Source of the DNA: Neorhizobium sp. JUb45
GTDB taxonomy: Bacteria > Pseudomonadota > Alphaproteobacteria > Rhizobiales > Rhizobiaceae
Direction of reading: 5' to 3'
Length of the DNA stretch: 64,000 nt
Assembly (NCBI RefSeq): GCF_004343585.1
Contig: NZ_SLYW01000003.1
Coordinates: 806,001 to 870,000, forward strand
In this document: piece by piece, positions 45,723 through 54,413 of the stretch
How the letters are laid out: every line of letters starts with the position of its first letter
Numbering within the stretch: position 1 is the first letter of the stretch
Notes under the pieces: model-generated
What the model was told of the DNA's origin: nothing
What the model saw: only the letters and a program-made list of their open reading frames with translations
Database searches by the model: none
Made by a program: the position numbers and the translations under genes

Positions 45723-46613
45723 ATGAAAACCAACGCCCTCTTCAAACGCAGCTATAATCAGGCCCTCGACATGCTGGCCGCCACACAGGTGGAGGCCGCG
45801 CTGCCATCGGAGCCGGCCATGGCTGCGACACTTGGCATCAGTCGGACGACTGTGCGTGCGGTGCTGGCGGCGCTCGCCATGCGCGGCATCATCACCATAG
45901 ACGGGCGTGCCAAGCAGCTGTTGCGCCTGCCGAAGCGTAACGACTACATTGCCGATGCCGATCTGGAGCCGCTGGCCGACATGGTGGAGCGCAAGTTCAT
46001 GGCATGGCTGGTCGGGCCCGATTGCAGCCCCGGCCATACGATCAATGGTCTTGATCTTGCCCGGCAGTTCGGCGTGTCGACATCGGCCATTCGCGATTGC
46101 CTCGGAAAATTCAGCCATTTCGGCCTGTTGGAACGACAGAGCAACGGCCGCTGGCGCACGCTTGGCCTGACCGTCGATTTCGTCGCGGAACTGTTCGATA
46201 TGCGCGAATTGATCGAGTTCCGGGCTGTCGATCGATTTGTGGCGCTGCCGAAGGATGATCCGCTCTGGGGCGATTTGTCTCTGCTCGCGGATGAACATCA
46301 CGCCCTGCTCGACGATTTCGAGCGCCGCAATCGCGAGTTTTCCGATCTCGATCACCGGTTTCACAAGCTGGTCGACAGCGTCGTTCCCAACCGGTTTCTC
46401 GGCAATATCCAGGGCGTGATGTCGGTGATTTTTCACTATCACTACCAGTGGAACAAAAAGGACGAGAGCGCCCGCAATCATCGGGCTCTGGGGGAGCATC
46501 TGGCCTATATCGAGGGATTGCGGAGTGGGGACCTTTCCCAGGCGCGCGAAAGCTGCCGCCTGCATCTGCACACGGCCCGTTCAACTATGCTGGCTTCCAT
46601 CAATCCCGGCTGA
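45723..46613 (+). CDS. GntR-type regulator with two winged helices and an FCD domain
   Basis: 296 residues from ATG 45723 (MKTNALFKRSYNQALDML). Two successive winged-helix segments can be read: LPSEPAMAATLGISRTTVRAVLAALAMRGII (about 28-58) and HTINGLDLARQFGVSTSAIRDCLGKFSHFGLLER (about 103-137), followed by an FCD-like helical domain with His/Asp metal candidates (SDLDHRFHKLV, HYHYQW, LHLHTA). Usual FadR-type regulators have only one winged helix. It is divergent from the uxa genes and probably regulates them. Confidence 0.82.
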   Translation: MKTNALFKRSYNQALDMLAATQVEAALPSEPAMAATLGISRTTVRAVLAALAMRGIITIDGRAKQLLRLPKRNDYIADADLEPLADMVERKFMAWLVGPDCSPGHTINGLDLARQFGVSTSAIRDCLGKFSHFGLLERQSNGRWRTLGLTVDFVAELFDMRELIEFRAVDRFVALPKDDPLWGDLSLLADEHHALLDDFERRNREFSDLDHRFHKLVDSVVPNRFLGNIQGVMSVIFHYHYQWNKKDESARNHRALGEHLAYIEGLRSGDLSQARESCRLHLHTARSTMLASINPG

Positions 46614-46639
46614 TGGTATGGAAATCCTCAGTATACAAC

Positions 46640-46645
46640 TTGACT
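46640..46645 (+). promoter_or_regulatory. -35 element of the cobalamin-riboswitch operon
   Basis: TTGACT, with candidate -10 hexamers CATACA (17-base spacing) or TACACT (19-base spacing) just after the metal-repressor-like box. Confidence 0.45.
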
Positions 46646-46663
46646 GTAATGATATTACATAAC
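46646..46663. promoter_or_regulatory. Fur-family (Zur-like) operator
   Basis: GTAATGATATTACATAAC has the dyad GTnATGnnATnnCATnAC and agrees at 15 of 18 positions with the Zur-type consensus GTAATGTTATAACATTAC as I recall it. It lies between the -35 and -10 elements, ideal for repression. Fur, Mur or Zur cannot be told apart by eye. Confidence 0.55.
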
Positions 46664-46712
46664 ATACACTATTGGCATTGACGGCGGGCGCATCTGCCAG
46701 CTAAGTCAGCGT

Positions 46713-46925
46713 CGACGGTTTCCAACGCCAAAAGCAATGGGATTAATAGGGAACACGGTGCGGACCTTGACCGGACCAATGCCGTGGCTGCCCCCGCAAC
46801 TGTAAGCGGATCACCGTCCATCCTCGAGATGCCCGAAGGGTATCTGGCCACTGTGTCGTGATCGGCATGGGAAGGCAGGTGGACGTCATGTTCGTGAGCC
46901 AGGAGACCTGCCGTCAGGACAGAGC
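46713..46925 (+). promoter_or_regulatory. Cobalamin riboswitch
   Basis: Classical adenosylcobalamin riboswitch landmarks in order: AATAGGGAACACGGTGCGG (about 46745-46763), GCCGTGGCTGCCCCCGCAAC then TGTAAGCGG (46781-46809), CACTG, GGGAAGGCAGGTGG, and the B12 box GAGCCAGGAGACCTGCC (46896-46912). The outer limits are approximate. It should switch off the ABC importer downstream when cobalamin is plentiful. Confidence 0.95.
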
Positions 46926-47093
46926 TATCGTTACGGGCGGGGATGCCCGGAAGAGGACCACGTTATGATGCTTCCGAGCGCTTATGCGCACTCCATGGTC
47001 TTTATCCCTCATCCGTCGATGTCGGCTGTCTGCCGGCAGGTGCTGTGACACGCCTTGCCGCTTCCCATCGATCACACCCTTCAAGGAGAGACC

Positions 47094-48122
47094 ATGTTTC
47101 ATTTTACGCGCCGGGCGTTGAGCGCTGGCCTTTTGGCTGCCGCTTCATTGTCATTGGCCACCACCGTGTCTGCTGCCGAAACGCAATATCCATTGACGAT
47201 CAAGAATTGCGGCCTTGAGCTGACATTCAAGCAGGCGCCCTCGAAAACCGTTTCGGTTGGCCAGAGTGTCACGGAAGTTCTTTATCTGCTCGGTCTCTCC
47301 GACAAGGTGGTCGGTACTGCGCTCTGGGTCAGCCCGGTGCTGAAGGGTTTTGAAGAGGTCAATGCCAAGGTCGAGCGCCTTGCCGATAATGATCCGAGCT
47401 TTGAAGCAGTGATCGGCAAGAAACCTGATCTAGTTACCACCCAGTTCCAGTGGCAGATCGGCCCGGAAGGTGTGGTTGGTACCCCGGCACAGTTCGCCGA
47501 ACTCGGCGTGCCGGTTTACACATCGCCGGCCGATTGTGTTGGCAAGGACAATTCCGGTGGTGGCGATGGCGTGCGCACCGGCGTCTTTTCGATGGAGCTG
47601 ATCTATCAGGAAATCCGCGATCTGGCGGTCATCTACAATGTTCAGGATCGTGGTGAGGAAGTTGTAGCCGACCTGAAAAAACGTGAGGACGCCGCGCGCA
47701 AAAAGATCGCGTCGGCGGATGGCAAGCTTTCGGCTGTCTTCTGGTTCTCCAGCGCCGAACTCGATATCGATCCTTACGTTGCCGGCCGTCATGGCGCGCC
47801 GGGCTACATCATGTCGGCGCTCGGCATCAAGAATGTCATCGAAAGCGATGAGGAATGGCCAACCGTCGGCTGGGAAACCATCGCCAAGGCCAACCCGACC
47901 ATCATCGTTGCCGGCAAGATGGATCGCCGTCGTTTCCCGGCCGATGATGTTGCCGTCAAGCACGCGTTCCTGAGGGAAGACCCGGTTGCCAGCCTGATGC
48001 CGGCCTTCAAGCAAGGCCATGTGGTTGAAATGGATGCGCAGGCCATGAACCCGACCATTCGCACGATCGAAGGTCTGGAAGTGCTGGCTGATGCGGTCGC
48101 CTCTGCCGGTCTGGCCAAATAA
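47094..48122 (+). CDS. Corrinoid/metal-chelate ABC transporter substrate-binding protein (BtuF/FepB type)
   Basis: 342 residues, signal peptide about 1-27 (VSAAETQYP), type III periplasmic-binding fold: QYPLTIKNCGLELTFKQAPSKTVSVGQSVTEVLYLLGLSDKVVG is the canonical start. First gene under the cobalamin riboswitch, 170 bp after the B12 box, which makes cobalamin, a precursor or cobalt-related chelate the most likely ligand, although siderophores use the same fold. Start ATG 47094 has AAGGAGAG upstream. Confidence 0.85.
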   Translation: MFHFTRRALSAGLLAAASLSLATTVSAAETQYPLTIKNCGLELTFKQAPSKTVSVGQSVTEVLYLLGLSDKVVGTALWVSPVLKGFEEVNAKVERLADNDPSFEAVIGKKPDLVTTQFQWQIGPEGVVGTPAQFAELGVPVYTSPADCVGKDNSGGGDGVRTGVFSMELIYQEIRDLAVIYNVQDRGEEVVADLKKREDAARKKIASADGKLSAVFWFSSAELDIDPYVAGRHGAPGYIMSALGIKNVIESDEEWPTVGWETIAKANPTIIVAGKMDRRRFPADDVAVKHAFLREDPVASLMPAFKQGHVVEMDAQAMNPTIRTIEGLEVLADAVASAGLAK

Positions 48123-48133
48123 AGCCGATCGCA

Positions 48134-49162
48134 GTGAAACGCATTCCAGCAAAACTTGGAGGGACAGGCGCCGCAGTTGCGGCGCTCGTTCTTCTTCTGG
48201 TGGCGCTGATTGCCGGTGCGGCGATCGGCGAAACCTCCATTCCCTTCGATGTGGTGGTGAAAACGGTTGCCAATCGGATGCTCGGTGCGGGTTATCCGCT
48301 TGAGCCTCTCGATGAAGGCATCGTCTGGAGCTATCGCCTCAGCCGCGCCGTCGTTGCCGCCTGTTGCGGCGCGTCGCTGGCGCTGGCCGGTGCGGTGCTG
48401 CAGTCGCTTTTGCGCAATCCGTTGGCAGACCCCTACATCCTCGGTATTTCGGCCGGTGCCTCCACCGGTGCTGTCGCCGTTGCCCTTCTCGGTTTCGGGG
48501 CCGGCATGCTGACCATGCCGATGGGCGCGCTTGCGGGCGCTCTCGCCGCCTTCCTGCTCGTCAGCCTTCTGGCCGTGCGCGCCGGCAGCGGCAGCAATGC
48601 CATCATTCTCGCCGGTGTCGCCGGCTCGCAGATGTTCAACGCAATCACCTCCTTCGTCGTCACCAAGTCGGCGACGGCGGAACAGGCGCGCGGCATCATG
48701 TTCTGGCTGCTCGGCAACCTGTCCGGCGTGCGCTGGCCGGATGTCGGTCTGGCGCTGCCGGTCACCATCATTGGCCTGCTGATCTGCCTCTGGCATGTCC
48801 GCGCGCTCGATGCCTTCGCCTTCGGCAATCAGGCCGCCGCCTCGCTCGGCATCCGGGTGCGCCGGGTGCAGGTCGTGCTGATCTGTACGGCGGCGGCGAT
48901 GACGGCAGCGATGGTGTCGCTGGTCGGCTCGATCGGCTTTATCGGTCTGGTCATCCCGCATGCGGCTCGGCTGATCGTCGGCGTCCGGCATGGTCGGCTG
49001 TTGCCGGTCACGGCTCTGGTCGGCGCTATTTTCATGATTGTCGCCGACATACTGTCGCGCACCATCATTTCCGGTCAGGTTCTGCCGATCGGTGTCATCA
49101 CCGCATTGTTCGGCGCGCCGGCCTTCGCCTTCATCCTCGGGCAGAAGAGGGCGCGGCCATGA
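48134..49162 (+). CDS. FecCD/BtuC-family ABC transporter permease
   Basis: 342 residues with a GTG start (48134) and about ten hydrophobic helices. Family landmarks: RLSRAVVAACCGASLALAGAVLQSLLRNPLADPYILGISAGAS near 60-105 and GSIGFIGLVIPHAARLIVG near 265-285. Forms the channel for the BtuF-like receptor. Overlaps the ATPase gene by 4 bases. Confidence 0.92.
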   Translation: MKRIPAKLGGTGAAVAALVLLLVALIAGAAIGETSIPFDVVVKTVANRMLGAGYPLEPLDEGIVWSYRLSRAVVAACCGASLALAGAVLQSLLRNPLADPYILGISAGASTGAVAVALLGFGAGMLTMPMGALAGALAAFLLVSLLAVRAGSGSNAIILAGVAGSQMFNAITSFVVTKSATAEQARGIMFWLLGNLSGVRWPDVGLALPVTIIGLLICLWHVRALDAFAFGNQAAASLGIRVRRVQVVLICTAAAMTAAMVSLVGSIGFIGLVIPHAARLIVGVRHGRLLPVTALVGAIFMIVADILSRTIISGQVLPIGVITALFGAPAFAFILGQKRARP

Positions 49163-49959
49163 AGCTGTCCGCGCAAAATCTCTGCTGGTCCGCCGGCCGT
49201 CTGGAGATCGTCCGCGATGTCTCCTTCGAGGTCGCGTCAGGGGAATTTCTCGGGATCATCGGCCCCAATGGTTCTGGAAAAAGCACGTTGCTGTCGATGT
49301 TGGCCGGCATTCGCAAACCACTGTCCGGTCAGGTCATGCTGGGTGATATGCCCATGCGCTCCATCGGCAGCCGGGAGGTCGCCCAAAAGCTAGCCTTTGT
49401 CGAACAGCAGGCGGAAACGGCGGAGCGCATCACCGCCCGTCAGGCGGTTGAGCTGGGGCGCACGCCCTATCTCGGGCCGCTGTCCGGTTGGTCGGTCGAG
49501 GATGACACGATCGTCGATGCCGCGCTCGACAATGTCGATATGGCCGACAAGGCCGATCGCCAGTGGCATCACCTTTCCGGCGGAGAACGGCAGCGGCTTC
49601 ATATCGGCCGCGCACTCGCACAGGAACCGCGTGTGCTGCTGCTTGACGAGCCAACCAACCATCTCGATATCGGCCACCAGATCGATCTGCTCGACCTCGT
49701 GCGCCGACAGGATCTGACGGTCGTGGCGGCCCTGCATGACCTCAACCACGCTGCCATGTTCTGCGATCGGATCGCGATCATGGACAATGGTCGGCTGACG
49801 GCGATCGGCAAGCCGCATGATGTCCTGACAGCCGCCACCATCAGTTCTGTCTTCGGCGTGGATGCCTCGGTTTCCCCCGATGAAGACGGTATCTGCCATG
49901 TGCGGTTTCGCGCCGGCGGCAGAAGACGAATTTCTCCCACGAAGGACGATTTTACATGA
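49159..49959 (+). CDS. FecE/BtuD-family ABC transporter ATP-binding protein
   Basis: 266 residues from ATG 49159: Walker A GPNGSGKST, signature LSGGERQRLHIGRAL, Walker [13 protein letters not shown] and H-loop ALHDLNHAAMFCD. Standard for corrinoid/siderophore/heme importers. Its last codons overlap the pseudoazurin start (ATGA), so the blue copper protein is translated from the same message. Confidence 0.92.
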   Translation: MKLSAQNLCWSAGRLEIVRDVSFEVASGEFLGIIGPNGSGKSTLLSMLAGIRKPLSGQVMLGDMPMRSIGSREVAQKLAFVEQQAETAERITARQAVELGRTPYLGPLSGWSVEDDTIVDAALDNVDMADKADRQWHHLSGGERQRLHIGRALAQEPRVLLLDEPTNHLDIGHQIDLLDLVRRQDLTVVAALHDLNHAAMFCDRIAIMDNGRLTAIGKPHDVLTAATISSVFGVDASVSPDEDGICHVRFRAGGRRRISPTKDDFT

Positions 49960-50408
49960 TGAAAGTTCTCAGACCCATCCTCGCCTCGCTGGCACTGGCG
50001 GTTTTCTCCGGCAATGCGATGGCCGAGACTTTCGAAGTCAAGATGCTGAACCGGGGCGAAAAAGGCCCGATGGTATTCGAGCCGGATTATCTGGAAATCA
50101 AGCCCGGTGATCGGGTCGTGTTCGTTCCCACCCACAAGAGCCACAATGCCGCGACGATCGATGGCATGATCCCGGAAGGTGCGGAAGGTTTCAAAAGCCG
50201 TATCAACGACCAGTTCGAGACCGGTTTCGACAAGCCCGGCTTTTACGGGATCAAATGCTCACCGCATCTGGGCATGGGCATGGTCATGCTGATCAAGGTG
50301 GGGGAGGCAAAGCTTCCGGAAAGCTACAAGTTGATCTCGCTACCGGCCCGCGCCAAGCCGCGCATGGATGGATTGTTTTCGCAGGCGGAAAAAACGCCTG
50401 CTCAGTGA
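49956..50408 (+). CDS. Pseudoazurin (type 1 blue copper protein)
   Basis: 150 residues; signal peptide about 1-23 (GNAMAETF), then a cupredoxin domain. Copper ligands His63, Cys101, His104 and Met109 (HKSHNAATI; KCSPHLGMGM) have the spacing of known pseudoazurins. Periplasmic electron carrier, usually donating to copper nitrite reductase or nitrous oxide reductase in denitrifiers. Its coupling to a cobalamin-riboswitch transport operon is unusual. A terminator follows directly. Confidence 0.93.
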   Translation: MMKVLRPILASLALAVFSGNAMAETFEVKMLNRGEKGPMVFEPDYLEIKPGDRVVFVPTHKSHNAATIDGMIPEGAEGFKSRINDQFETGFDKPGFYGIKCSPHLGMGMVMLIKVGEAKLPESYKLISLPARAKPRMDGLFSQAEKTPAQ

Positions 50409-50414
50409 AATGCA

Positions 50415-50446
50415 AAAGGGCGGCACCTCGCAAAGGGCCGCCCTTT
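50415..50446. terminator. Terminator after the pseudoazurin gene
   Basis: Perfect 10-bp stem AAAGGGCGGC (50415-50424) with GCCGCCCTTT (50437-50446). Faces the end of the large octapeptide-repeat gene and may serve both strands. Confidence 0.75.
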
Positions 50447-50501
50447 CTCTGTCTGCAATGACCGGCCGCCTGTATGCGGCCGATCTTGTCTTCATCTCGG
50501 A

Positions 50502-53500
50502 TCAGGCTACCTGGTAGGCAGCGATGACGGCTTCGACCTGCTTGTTGTCCATTGCCGCAAGCTGCTTTTCCGTAAGCTCACCAAGGCGTGTCTTGCCGAG
50601 GCTTGCGATGTCCTCCACGGACAGACCGCCAATAGCCTTCGTGTTGATCGCGGCGATTTCGTCTGCCGTGAACTGCTTGATGGCATCGGTTGCCAGTCCG
50701 GCAATCTGGGCGGTGGACAATACGCCGATCTGACCGGTCGTCAGCTCTGCCACCTGGGTCAGCGTCATGTTGGCAATCTGGTCGGCGGTCAGGCCAACCA
50801 CGGCCTTGTTGCTGAGCTTGGCGATATCGCCGGTGTCGAGCTCCTTGATCTGGTCGTTGCTCAATGCGCCAACCTGGTTGGCCGTGAGGGCGCCAAGCTG
50901 AGTGTCGTCCAAGGCCTTGATGGAGGCAGTGCTGAGGCTCTTGACCTGGTTGGTGCTGAGTGCGGCAACCTGACCAGCCGAAAGCTTTGCAATCTGAGTG
51001 GTGCCCAAACCGCCGACGACCGTATCGGAAAGGCCGGAAATTGCCTTGGTGCTGATCGCGCCGATCTGGTCGTCAGTCAGCTCCGCAGCGGTCTGGAAGC
51101 CACCGAGCTGTTTTGCCGTCAGCGTGGCGATCTGCGCGGTGGTGATGGCCTTTGTCTGCGTTTCGGACAGCGCGGAGATCTGTGCCGTCGTCAAGCCAGC
51201 CGTGGCCTTGGTGCTCAGCTTCTGGACGGAAAGCTTGGCAACCTGCTCGTCGGAAAGTACCGCCACCTGCGTGGAGGTCAGTGCCGCAAGCTGTGTGTCG
51301 CTCAGTTTTTCGATCTGCGCGTCTGTCAGGCTCTTGATCTGGTTTGTGCTCAGCGCCGAGACCTGAGCGGCCGTGAAGGCATCATCAATGTCGTCGGCAG
51401 CGATCTTGGAGATGATGTCGGTGGACAGGCCGGTGATTTCCTTGGCGCTGATCTTGGAGATCTGGGCTTCAGTCAGGTCACCGTCTGCAAAGGCGCCGAT
51501 CTGCTTGCTGGTCAAGGAACCCATCAGCGTATCGGTGAGCGTGGCGAGCTGGGTTGCACCCATATTGCCGAACTGCTCCGCCGTCAGGCCGGGAATGGCC
51601 TTGGTCGAGAGCTTGGTCAGATCGACCTTGGCGAGCTGAGCATCGCTCAGGCCGGCCACCTGGGTGGAGGACAGGGCGCCCAGCTGTGTTTCGGTAAGCT
51701 TGCCGATCTGTGTGTCCGACAGGCCATCGATCTGTGCGTTGCTCAATGCGGTGATCTGGGCCGGCTTGAGGGCGCCCAGCTGGGTGTCGGTCAGCGCGGT
51801 GATCGCAGCAGGGAGGATGCTGGAAATCGCCTTGGCATCGATTGCGGCAATCTGGGTGTCGCCAAGCTTGCTGAACTGGTCAGCAGTGAGGCTACCGATC
51901 TGCTTGGCACTCATTGCGGTGATCTGAGCCGGCTGGAGTGCTGCAATCTGACCATCGTCGAGAGCGGCGACCGCTTCGAGCGACAGGCCGGAAATCGCCT
52001 TGGCGCTGATCGCGGTGATCTCGTCATCGGCAAACTTTCCGATGTCGGCACCTGTGAAGCCGGACAGCTGGTCTGCGGACAAGGAGGCGATCTGGCCTGC
52101 GGTCAGGTCTTCGACCTGATCGTCGGACAGTGCGCCGACCTGCGCCTTGCTGAGGCCTGCGACAGCCTTTGCGGAAAGTGCGGTAACGTCGATCTTGGCG
52201 AGCGCGGCTTCGCTGAATGCGCCGAGCTGTGTGGCAGAGAGCGCGCCGATCTGACCTGTGGTGAGCTTTTCTGCCTGCGCGTCTGTCAGGGCCTTGATCT
52301 GGTTTGCACCCAGAGCTGCGACCTGACCGTCCGTCAGGGCGGTCGGGATGCTGGCAGCGGCGATACCGGCAATAAATTCTGCGGTCAGGCCGGAGACAGC
52401 CTTGGTGCTGATCTTGGCAATGTTTGCAGCGTCCAGATCACCCGTTACGAAGCCGGCAACCTGCTTGGCTGTCAGGGCACCAAGCTGCGCGTCAACGAGG
52501 CTCTTGGTCTGCGTGTCGCTCATCGCGCCGATCTGCGTCGAGGTCAGGCCGGAGACGGCCTTTGCCGACAGCTTGGCAACGTCAAGCTTTTCGATCTGCG
52601 CGGTGGTCATGGCGGCAACCTGGGTCGAACCCAGAACGCCAACCTGGTCAGCGGAGAGTTCGTCAATCTGGTCGGCTGTCAGGGCCTTGACCTGGTTTGC
52701 ACCAAGCGCGGCGACCTGGGCGGTCGACAGAACGGTTGCAACCTTGGTCTTGTCGATGGCCGCCAGAACGTCGGTGCCGAGGCCGGAAATCGCCTTTGCG
52801 CTGACGGCAGAAATCTGTGCTTCGGTCAGGTCGCCGCTGGCGAACCCGCCCAGCTGCTTTGCGTTAAGCAGGCCGATCTGTGTTGGTTCGAACTTCTTTG
52901 TCTCTGTGTCGGTCATTCCCGTCAGCTGACCGGCGGTCAGGCCGGTAATGGCCTTGGCACTGATCTTGGTGACATCAATCTTGGCGAGCTGTTCGTTGCT
53001 CAGAGCGCCGACCTGTGTGGCGGAGAGCGCGCCGATCTGTTCTGCAGACAGCTTTTCAGCCTGTGCCGCAGTCAGAGCCTTGATCTGGTTGGTACCCAGA
53101 GCTGCAACCTGGCCGGTCGACAGGGCCGTGGGGATATCGGCAGCAGTGATGCCGGCAATGAATTCTGCGGACAAGCCGGAGACTGCTTTGGTGCTGATCT
53201 TGGAAATGTTTGCAGAGTCGATGTCGCCTGCGGCAAAGCCGGCAACCTGCTTGGCTGTCAGGGCACCAAGCTGCGTGTCGACGAGGCTCTTGGTCTGCGT
53301 GTCGCTCATCGCGCCGATCTGCGCCGAGGTCAGCCCAGGGACGGCCTTTGCCGACAGCTTGGCAACATCGAGCTTTTCGATCTGCGCGGTGGTCATGGCG
53401 GCAACCTGGGTCGAACCCAGAACGCCAACCTGGTCAGCGGAGAGTTCGTCGATCTGGTCGGCCGTCAGGGCCTTGACCTGGTTTGCACCAAGCGCTGCGA

Positions 53501-54413
53501 CCTGGGCGGTCGACAGAACGGTTGCAACCTTGGTCTTGTCGATGGCAGCCAGAACGTCGGTGCCGAGGCCGGAAATCGCCTTTGCGCTGACGGCAGAAAT
53601 CTGTGCTTCGGTCAGGTCGCCGCTGGCGAACCCGCCTAGCTGCTTTGCGTTAAGCAGACCGATCTGCGTTGGTTCGAACTTCTTTGTCTCTGTGTCGGTC
53701 ATTCCCGTCAGCTGACCGGCGGTCAGGCCGGTGATGGCCTTGGCACTGATCTTGGTGACATCAATCTTGGCGAGCTGTTCGTTGCTCAGTACCGAAACCT
53801 GCGATGACGTCAGTGCTGCCACCTGGCCGTCGCCAGTGAGCTTTTCAAACTGGGCGGCCGTCAGCGCCTTGACCTGGTTGAGGCTGAAGCTGGCAATCTG
53901 TGCCGGCTTGAGAGCAGCCAGATCATCGTCGCCGAGCGCGGCGACTGCGTCTGTTGCGAGGCCCGATATGGCCTTGGCGCTGATGGCGCCGATTTCGTCA
54001 GCCGTGAATTTTCCAATGTCGCCCGCGCTGAGGCCGCTGATCTGGGCTGCGCTAAGCGATGCGATCTGTGTGGCGTCGAGCGCGGTGACCTGATCTTCGC
54101 TCAATGCGCTCATCTGCGTAGACGATAGCGCAGCGATCTGTGCCGTCGAGAAGAGGGCAATCTTGCTGTCGTCGATGGCAGCAATCTGTTCTGCCTTGAG
54201 GCCGACAATCGACTTGGCCGAAATCGCCTTCAACTGTTCGTCGCTCAATACATCGACGTGGTCAGCACTGATGGCGCCGATCTGAGCCGAGCTCAAAACC
54301 TTCACCTGCGCTTCGGTCAGCGCTTTCACATCATCTTCTTTGAGGGTGGCGATGGTCGCAGTCGACAGCTTCTGGATCTGAGCCGTCGAAAAGGAAGAGA
54401 TAATCGATGTCAT
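50502..54413 (-). CDS. Giant octapeptide-repeat protein, 1303 residues, function unknown
   Basis: The protein can be cut without remainder into 167 short units, nearly all octapeptides of the form [ST]-x-x-Q-[IV]-x-x-[LIM] (for example STAQIAAL, SSTQMSAL). Residues 1-209 are plain octads. Residues 210-1184 hold seven higher-order modules: six of exactly 131 residues (17 units, with 5-residue units such as DVTKI and ASGDL at fixed places and a 9-residue unit) and one of 189. Residues 1185-1303 are a cap ending IAAYQVA. I saw no Cys or Trp and essentially a single Arg and Tyr. No signal peptide, membrane segment or RTX repeat. Ser/Thr-x-x-Gln looks like a helix N-cap, so a solenoid of short helices is possible. 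Large repeat adhesins or structural proteins come to mind; no family is recognised. Confidence 0.9.
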   Translation of the reverse strand: MTSIISSFSTAQIQKLSTATIATLKEDDVKALTEAQVKVLSSAQIGAISADHVDVLSDEQLKAISAKSIVGLKAEQIAAIDDSKIALFSTAQIAALSSTQMSALSEDQVTALDATQIASLSAAQISGLSAGDIGKFTADEIGAISAKAISGLATDAVAALGDDDLAALKPAQIASFSLNQVKALTAAQFEKLTGDGQVAALTSSQVSVLSNEQLAKIDVTKISAKAITGLTAGQLTGMTDTETKKFEPTQIGLLNAKQLGGFASGDLTEAQISAVSAKAISGLGTDVLAAIDKTKVATVLSTAQVAALGANQVKALTADQIDELSADQVGVLGSTQVAAMTTAQIEKLDVAKLSAKAVPGLTSAQIGAMSDTQTKSLVDTQLGALTAKQVAGFAAGDIDSANISKISTKAVSGLSAEFIAGITAADIPTALSTGQVAALGTNQIKALTAAQAEKLSAEQIGALSATQVGALSNEQLAKIDVTKISAKAITGLTAGQLTGMTDTETKKFEPTQIGLLNAKQLGGFASGDLTEAQISAVSAKAISGLGTDVLAAIDKTKVATVLSTAQVAALGANQVKALTADQIDELSADQVGVLGSTQVAAMTTAQIEKLDVAKLSAKAVSGLTSTQIGAMSDTQTKSLVDAQLGALTAKQVAGFVTGDLDAANIAKISTKAVSGLTAEFIAGIAAASIPTALTDGQVAALGANQIKALTDAQAEKLTTGQIGALSATQLGAFSEAALAKIDVTALSAKAVAGLSKAQVGALSDDQVEDLTAGQIASLSADQLSGFTGADIGKFADDEITAISAKAISGLSLEAVAALDDGQIAALQPAQITAMSAKQIGSLTADQFSKLGDTQIAAIDAKAISSILPAAITALTDTQLGALKPAQITALSNAQIDGLSDTQIGKLTETQLGALSSTQVAGLSDAQLAKVDLTKLSTKAIPGLTAEQFGNMGATQLATLTDTLMGSLTSKQIGAFADGDLTEAQISKISAKEITGLSTDIISKIAADDIDDAFTAAQVSALSTNQIKSLTDAQIEKLSDTQLAALTSTQVAVLSDEQVAKLSVQKLSTKATAGLTTAQISALSETQTKAITTAQIATLTAKQLGGFQTAAELTDDQIGAISTKAISGLSDTVVGGLGTTQIAKLSAGQVAALSTNQVKSLSTASIKALDDTQLGALTANQVGALSNDQIKELDTGDIAKLSNKAVVGLTADQIANMTLTQVAELTTGQIGVLSTAQIAGLATDAIKQFTADEIAAINTKAIGGLSVEDIASLGKTRLGELTEKQLAAMDNKQVEAVIAAYQVA
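52215..53000 (-). repeat. 786-bp tandem duplication within the octapeptide gene, second copy (modules 3-4)
   Basis: Encodes residues 472-733. Nearly identical, at DNA level over long stretches, to 53001-53786, with an exact period of 786 bp (262 residues, two 131-residue modules). Differences are scattered substitutions and are commoner towards the end of the unit. Confidence 0.9.
53001..53786 (-). repeat. 786-bp tandem duplication within the octapeptide gene, first copy (modules 1-2)
   Basis: Encodes residues 210-471. Close DNA identity to the adjacent copy implies recent unequal crossing-over or slippage, and suggests module number can vary between strains. Confidence 0.9.

Follow-up and report, generated by a model that had tools for sequence, protein, structure and literature searches.

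The closest characterised relative of the importer described here is CbtJKL of Sinorhizobium meliloti. According to a passage of PMC7689651, this system is encoded on pSymB with an adenosylcobalamin riboswitch, was formerly thought to be a cobalamin transporter and carries Co(II); excerpts of two other papers call it the major cobalt uptake system (PMC4207669) and an important cobalt transporter (PMC12239276). BtuFCD, which is likewise an importer of the ATP-binding cassette (ABC) type, offers a second comparison, as genes for cobalamin (vitamin B12) uptake also stand under cobalamin riboswitches. A third system, FtrABCD, works alike only: it is a metal importer with a periplasmic cupredoxin of its own, FtrB, which according to PMC11966278 differs from the cupredoxins known so far, uses D118 and H121 to bind copper and oxidises Fe(II). 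In Neorhizobium sp. JUb45, a window of 64,000 nucleotides, by which the whole stretch analysed is meant (contig NZ_SLYW01000003.1, positions 806,001 to 870,000), holds a cobalamin riboswitch followed by an ABC importer and a gene for the blue copper protein pseudoazurin. New is that a B12-controlled, presumably cobalt-carrying importer has a pseudoazurin group of its own, B12-controlled cobalt importers being known already, and this pseudoazurin is probably a dedicated accessory of cobalt import.

The operon consists of the following features, given in window coordinates:
46699 to 46929, plus strand: cobalamin riboswitch aptamer (RF00174, 108.4 bits against a gathering threshold of 31.5, full model 1-189)
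46994 to 47003, plus strand: candidate anti-Shine-Dalgarno element, proposed because it could pair with the first gene's start codon and ribosome-binding site
47083 to 47096, plus strand: Shine-Dalgarno sequence and start codon of the first gene (from sequence and fold)
47094 to 48122, plus strand: CbtJ-like periplasmic binding protein, Peripla_BP_2 (family models, similarity to S. meliloti)
48134 to 49162, plus strand: CbtK-like FecCD-type permease with a GTG start (family models, similarity to S. meliloti)
49159 to 49959, plus strand: CbtL-like ABC ATPase (family models, similarity to S. meliloti)
49159 to 49162, plus strand: ATGA overlap of permease stop and ATPase start (sequence)
49956 to 49959, plus strand: ATGA in which the ATPase gene stops and the pseudoazurin gene starts (sequence)
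49956 to 50408, plus strand: pseudoazurin of 150 amino acids with a signal peptide by inspection (curated model, solved relatives)
50411 to 50457, plus strand: terminator-like hairpin 3' of the pseudoazurin stop codon with a weak T run (-24.7 kcal/mol, z -4.40)

Riboswitch, binding protein, permease, ATPase and pseudoazurin thus lie on one strand in that order, and this arrangement is confirmed as observed. RF00174 was the sole match at gathering thresholds within the window. An earlier note on this DNA had claimed that the pseudoazurin start overlaps the ATPase stop codon and that the gene belongs to the riboswitch operon. Both claims hold, given the common strand, the riboswitch and the overlapping starts, to which the ATGA between permease and ATPase, unmentioned in the note, is to be added. 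A separate strong pseudoazurin promoter inside the ATPase gene would, according to the note, have spoken against this. A simple scan for promoters of the sigma-70 kind across 46600-50600 returned a single plus-strand site, at 47362-47390 within the binding-protein gene, and none inside the ATPase gene. The hairpin behind the pseudoazurin gene was not among the calls of a simple terminator scan.

The same arrangement recurs in dozens of genomes and is therefore not a product of chance. With the window protein's own peptides, 56 pseudoazurin loci were collected, a sample that leans to its clade. In 46 of these loci, binding protein, permease and ATPase immediately precede the pseudoazurin in the same orientation, and in three from Vreelandella and Halomonas the binding protein alone does so; the linkage is absent in the remaining seven. 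When genus relatives and plasmid loci are added, the full set is found in 57 of 69 loci (56 of 68 after removal of one duplicate), with taxa including Agrobacterium, Rhizobium, Sinorhizobium/Ensifer, Shinella, Brucella/Ochrobactrum, Paracoccus, Cereibacter, Gemmobacter and Roseomonas. Among symbionts, Sinorhizobium fredii NGR234 and Neorhizobium huautlense carry the operon. The linked groups are Rhizobiaceae, Brucellaceae, Rhodobacterales and Roseomonas with the full importer and Halomonadaceae with the binding protein alone. A riboswitch model for which 12 sequences were used, six from these operons and six from elsewhere, finds a match ahead of the binding-protein gene in 48 of 49 linked loci, the exception (L103) beginning at the start of its contig. 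With start codons picked by script, the spacing between ATPase and pseudoazurin genes ranges from -64 to +11 nucleotides in the 57 full-importer loci and is exactly -4 in 35 of the 56 distinct ones. The linkage, the conservation of which the earlier note had made a matter for survey, is conserved from this side and, in 25 of 77 loci, from the side of the importer as well. On the same contig of one genome (G004), two diverged operons of riboswitch, importer and pseudoazurin (L040, L042) lie about 67 kilobases (kb) apart.

The earlier note had named the importer a cobalamin-controlled system of the BtuFCD kind. The riboswitch-led ABC importer stands, but the name BtuFCD was rejected, because the curated models for BtuC (221.7 bits where 461 are needed, and 201 where 334 are needed) and BtuD (138.8 of 281) remain far under their cut-offs. 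Best-scoring among the NCBIfam models for the three importer proteins were those of the siderophore importer EitABC and of a putative F420-0 importer; these models (EitA, EitC and the F420-0 importer) all stay under the curated cut-off, too, with scores of 326.9 of 640, 278.4 of 437.35 and 296.8 of 485 among them. In a search of plasmid records, the binding protein showed 71.6% identity over 92% of its length to positions 66734-67669 of pSymB from S. meliloti 1021. The respective stretch of pSymB (L054) encodes binding protein, permease and ATPase with 69%, 76%, and 69% identity to those of the window in the same gene order, and the riboswitch upstream of them is matched by riboswitch model R1. 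We take this region (pSymB 66.7-69.5 kb, around SMb20056) to be cbtJKL from its position and its riboswitch, an equation which no cited passage states. A table in PMC2780559 gives the gap between SMb20055 and SMb20056 as 66313-66506, and in a passage of PMC2245857 smb20056 is said to be preceded by a B12 riboswitch. The order of riboswitch, binding protein, permease and ATPase is thus the same in both organisms, whereas the window alone of the two adds a pseudoazurin. Directly behind the operon of importer and pseudoazurin in Paracoccus yeei, the genes cobO, cobW and cobN are found. Judged by these similarities, the importer reads better as a cobalt importer of the CbtJKL type than as BtuFCD, and cobalt would be its substrate. 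From the suggestion of the earlier note that the pseudoazurin has a redox role in corrinoid or metal uptake, metal uptake thus persists as the best reading, while the corrinoid importer falls away with the BtuC and BtuD models. Neither does the operon belong to the FtrABCD type, the permease of which is Ftr1-like and not of the ABC kind; the window encodes a FecCD-type permease, and its cupredoxin is a pseudoazurin.

The identity of this cupredoxin is supported by the NCBIfam pseudoazurin model TIGR02375 (135.7 bits, cut-off 109.85) and by solved pseudoazurins, which match at E 2e-37; a PHROGs scan yielded a plastocyanin-like family only. The residues H63, C101, H104 and M109, which we take to be the type-1 copper ligands, are present, and all four are kept in the 59 linked sequences of an alignment that comprises 56 pseudoazurins from behind a full importer, three from behind a binding protein alone and 35 unlinked ones. 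On a tree of these 94 sequences, which was built apart from the pseudoazurins of the family sample introduced below, the label "linked" changes just once (support 87/66; 84% of 200 bootstrap trees), so that the linked pseudoazurins form one clade with weak to moderate support from a short alignment. This clade is marked by Met88, present in 59 of 59 linked and three of 35 unlinked sequences; the three unlinked ones (L053, L100, L105) stand beside the linked clade, and Met88 is accordingly not exclusive to it. Further positions of the linked group are I76 (59/59), G75 (58/59), I60 (57/59), S79 (54/59), and R10 (51/59), with others at 1, 2 and 21. In the numbering of the mature protein, positions 75, 76, 79 and 88 are situated around the ligands of the copper loop. 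M16, P80 and M84 are kept in all 59 linked sequences and equally in the 35 unlinked ones. The pseudoazurins of denitrification share with the window protein the score in the curated model and all four ligands but differ from it in their place on the tree, in positions 75, 76, 79 and 88, and in the tie to nitrite and nitrous oxide (N2O) reductases (NirK, NosZ), which the window protein shows neither in its neighbourhood nor in gene content. Whether lost basic docking residues might betray a new partner was considered, but the lead was dropped as unclear: the mean net charge is -4.2 in linked and unlinked sequences alike; among the linked sequences, K77 is kept in 56, K57 in 49 and K38 in 39 of 59, and position 10 is arginine in 51 of 59. 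A pseudoazurin fragment elsewhere in the same genome (L044, C3:550585-550809, a frame of 81 residues) looks by eye like the relic of a second copy of the linked type.

The operon is presumably repressed by cobalamin. In the minimum-energy fold, the element at 46994-47003 pairs with the Shine-Dalgarno sequence and ATG of the first gene, and its sequence does not vary between the window and three close relatives. As the whole region folds no better than its shuffles (z only -0.14) and these four sequences have 90% of their letters in common anyway, translational control by a sequestered cbtJ start site is a suggestion only; if it were true, the coupled starts would carry this control to the last gene. 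The other four cobalamin riboswitches of the genome precede nrdI/nrdF (L045), a pair of MesX-like and MetE-like genes (L046, named by eye from likeness to proteins of another locus, L041), cobW with cobN (L047), and cbtA (L048). These are genes of cobalt or B12 economy, among which the operon of importer and pseudoazurin fits. As these units include counterparts of the riboswitch-led isozymes MetE and NrdEF, and as the riboswitch units adjoining the operon in a relative (L077) hold metE and nrdE, the pseudoazurin might be an electron carrier that replaces a cobalamin-dependent function in a similar manner, as the earlier note had also proposed. However, the gene lies within an importer operon and not beside an isozyme, and its product is periplasmic by the signal peptide seen by inspection, while the B12-dependent enzymes of these bacteria are, to our knowledge, cytoplasmic. 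The proposal is therefore not supported, and we regard it as hardly probable at all.

Operons that have been split indicate with which component the pseudoazurin belongs. In three genomes of Halomonadaceae (L101, L104, L106), riboswitch, binding protein and pseudoazurin form a unit of their own, and homologs of cbtK (67-68% identity) followed by an ATPase gene are encoded elsewhere, each about 5 kb from cobN. One of these genomes additionally has a complete importer (L113), and the 0.7 kb covered behind it gave no match to pseudoazurin. Since the split operons keep the pseudoazurin with the binding protein, they point to a periplasmic partnership of pseudoazurin and CbtJ. In an alignment of 61 CbtJ sequences, five tryptophans and two cysteines are kept in at least 58, and no histidine is kept in 95%, so that histidine ligands for cobalt are not supported. 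From this pattern, CbtJ may bind cobalt in a complex and not as bare Co(II), which would favour a redox role of the pseudoazurin. At five loci (L179, L182, L183, L190, L198), two or three tandem binding proteins precede one pair of permease and ATPase, which hints at more than one form of the ligand.

Taken together, these observations have been arranged into an explanation to which we give even chances, namely a cobalamin-repressed cobalt-import operon with pseudoazurin as a periplasmic electron carrier that reduces Co(III). When adenosylcobalamin is scarce, the riboswitch would allow cbtJ to be translated, probably because the ribosome-binding site is no longer sequestered, and the coupled starts would relay this control from cbtJ to the pseudoazurin as the fourth gene. 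The mature pseudoazurin would then act in the periplasm beside CbtJ, where it would be reduced by the respiratory chain as its presumed partner and would in turn convert inert periplasmic Co(III) complexes into labile Co(II). Finally, CbtJKL would import Co(II) for CobNST and the de novo synthesis of B12. The redox step and its partner are what we infer, and that this step is the reduction of Co(III) is a tentative and rather doubtful proposal. Somewhat unlikely is the recruitment of a blue copper subfamily as cobalt reductase, which would supply a dedicated, B12-controlled importer with Co(II) made in the periplasm from inert Co(III) complexes, perhaps including degraded corrinoids or siderophore-bound cobalt. 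A redox reading is favoured because of the intact type-1 site with its group-specific neighbours, the periplasmic place, the partnership with CbtJ, the logic of the riboswitch, and the precedent of a system that works alike. The system in question is the iron importer with its cupredoxin FtrB, which according to PMC11966278, however, oxidises the metal.

The copper site, which is intact in 59 of 59 linked sequences, the extra Met88 of the linked group, and the split operons, which keep the pseudoazurin by the binding protein and not by the membrane parts, also suit the main rival, a copper buffer. Here, pseudoazurin made together with CbtJ would mop up periplasmic copper that otherwise displaces cobalt on CbtJ according to the Irving-Williams series, an argument that a passage of PMC7689651 makes for cobalt proteins. 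Yet a buffer would need less than a type-1 site whose surroundings for electron transfer (M16, P80, M84) are conserved, and strong copper binding by a CbtJ without an invariant histidine is not evident, for which reasons we consider a buffer unlikely. The conserved linkage would equally suit a cobalt-binding carrier, the site of which takes up Co(II) under copper-poor and cobalt-poor conditions and passes it to CbtJ. Type-1 copper sites do accept Co(II) in vitro, but copper should win the site wherever it is present, and all 59 linked sequences have the usual ligands of copper, which makes such a carrier improbable.

The role in denitrification that pseudoazurins usually have, and of which the earlier note reminded, does not explain the gene in this genome. 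NirK and NosZ are the usual electron acceptors of pseudoazurin, and profile models for NirK, NosZ and cytochrome d1 gave no match in the window's own genome, which is 99.6% complete; NirK and NosZ are thus not the partner of the window protein. Gene content was compared across a set of 48 linked genomes, five further linked loci lying outside the set and the genomes of the named loci carrying no completeness figures. NirK exceeds its cut-off in 22 and NosZ in 14 of these 48 genomes, 34 are without NosZ, and 24 have neither. For cytochrome d1, 14 of 55 genomes pass the low cut-off of 25.5 bits with partial and weak matches (best single match 41.7 bits), which do not look like NirS. In contrast, CobN is over its cut-off in 48 of 48 linked genomes, and these bacteria therefore make B12 and need cobalt. 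A link to denitrification has been conceived in which N2O destroys cobalamin, the riboswitch opens, and additional pseudoazurin feeds NosZ or NirK. Passages of PMC8390676 and PMC12848317, which tie B12 riboswitches to N2O itself and to copper shortage with N2O emission in Paracoccus, are in line with this, as are the linked genomes that do possess NosZ or NirK. However, no nir or nos neighbours were found at four annotated linked loci (L049, L050, L051, L056), whereas the unlinked pseudoazurins of L052 and L053 adjoin such genes. As a general reason for the linkage, donation of electrons to denitrification enzymes and the idea of N2O acting on B12 are refuted by the linked genomes without NosZ or NirK, that of the window included; the link is thus very improbable overall, though it could hold in single strains.

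Several observations weigh against a dedicated pseudoazurin in cobalt import and against the reduction of Co(III) in particular. No pseudoazurin match was obtained in the S. meliloti stretch of pSymB itself. In the genus, 36 places encode a binding protein with 50% identity or more, and pseudoazurin stands behind six of them, as counted by comparing the coordinates of binding-protein and pseudoazurin loci. In an evenly drawn sample of the family, restricted to binding proteins at E 1e-95 or better, a close binding protein was found in 76 of 297 genomes; 25 of the 77 importer loci, with that of the window counted, carry a pseudoazurin, and 52 show none, although one of the latter (L192) ends with its contig. 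In two otherwise complete operons (L181, L189), the pseudoazurin match is split over two frames, and the gene is seemingly broken. A sample of the class gave a close binding protein in nine of 387 genomes, the window's own included, and none of the seven loci outside the family had a pseudoazurin behind it. Since most importer loci lack the gene, it is not required for transport as such. On a tree of 108 CbtJ proteins, 37 of them with pseudoazurin, the label changes about 20 times, and at least ten of these changes are forced by supported branches. As regards the proteins, the conservation of M16, P80 and M84 says only "working pseudoazurin", because the unlinked sequences keep these residues equally, and the residue pattern of CbtJ is equally compatible with bare Co(II) and with a chelate or corrinoid as ligand. 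NirK or NosZ is present in half of the linked genomes tested (24/48), and literature searches returned no experiment on any linked pseudoazurin. The reduction of Co(III) complexes by blue copper proteins is in vitro chemistry.

The patchy presence and the two seemingly broken copies would also be expected if the pseudoazurin gene were a passenger that once landed behind the importer and has been carried along without a role in uptake. Against this stand the same place and tight spacing across Rhizobiaceae, Brucellaceae, Rhodobacterales and Roseomonas, the retention behind the binding protein alone in Halomonadaceae, and copper ligands that are intact in every linked sequence, so that a mere passenger appears quite improbable. 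In 500 shuffles of the labels on the CbtJ tree, none gave as few changes as observed. Pseudoazurin is thus a recurrent option of the importer operon and no fixed part of it.

With regard to neighbouring genes, 94 importer stretches were fetched, of which 91 contain permease and ATPase, 89 the 3' motif of the riboswitch and 24 a pseudoazurin. A class I S-adenosylmethionine-dependent methyltransferase is encoded in 25 of them, in 24 on the strand of the operon and in eight together with pseudoazurin, and in 14 loci of the 69-locus set it is the next gene past pseudoazurin (e.g. L049:6393-7190, L077:8441-9232). As a further fixed part of the system it was rejected, as it comes and goes independently, and the explanation does without it. 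At L077 and L079 (the latter by likeness to L077), a riboswitch-led unit of cbtJKL, pseudoazurin and methyltransferase adjoins riboswitch-led metE and nrdE, forming a compact island for B12 shortage. A cupin-like protein, metal-binding by eye and rich in histidine in L038, starts about 6 nucleotides (L057) or 104 nucleotides (L038) past pseudoazurin. In the window, the operon is adjoined on the opposite strand by the gene for an ALTTAQ-repeat protein of 1303 residues (50502-54413, minus strand; PF20080, 21 stretches).

In the literature, no description of pseudoazurin linked to a cobalamin riboswitch or to cobalt transport was found, though the searches left subscription papers mostly uncovered and absence is not proven. 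The searched passages of the riboswitch regulon survey PMC3766115 and of PMC7689651, PMC11804256, PMC11236759 and PMC4771312 make no mention of azurin, which in the last four was sought as the beginning of a word, and passages of PMC8390676, PMC12848317 and PMC9409073 do not describe the linkage of importer and pseudoazurin.

Little is known about the way in which bacteria acquire scarce cobalt when copper competes with it, or about the chemical form that is taken up. A copper electron carrier tied to a B12-controlled cobalt importer provides a concrete and easily deleted gene with which a redox or copper-shielding step can be tested. A pseudoazurin gene is moreover not always a denitrification gene, as the linked genomes without NirK and NosZ caution. 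If the proposal of a cobalt reductase is true, it would constitute a reductive route of cobalt assimilation, of which we know no earlier example, and a step in B12 supply that is powered by the respiratory chain.

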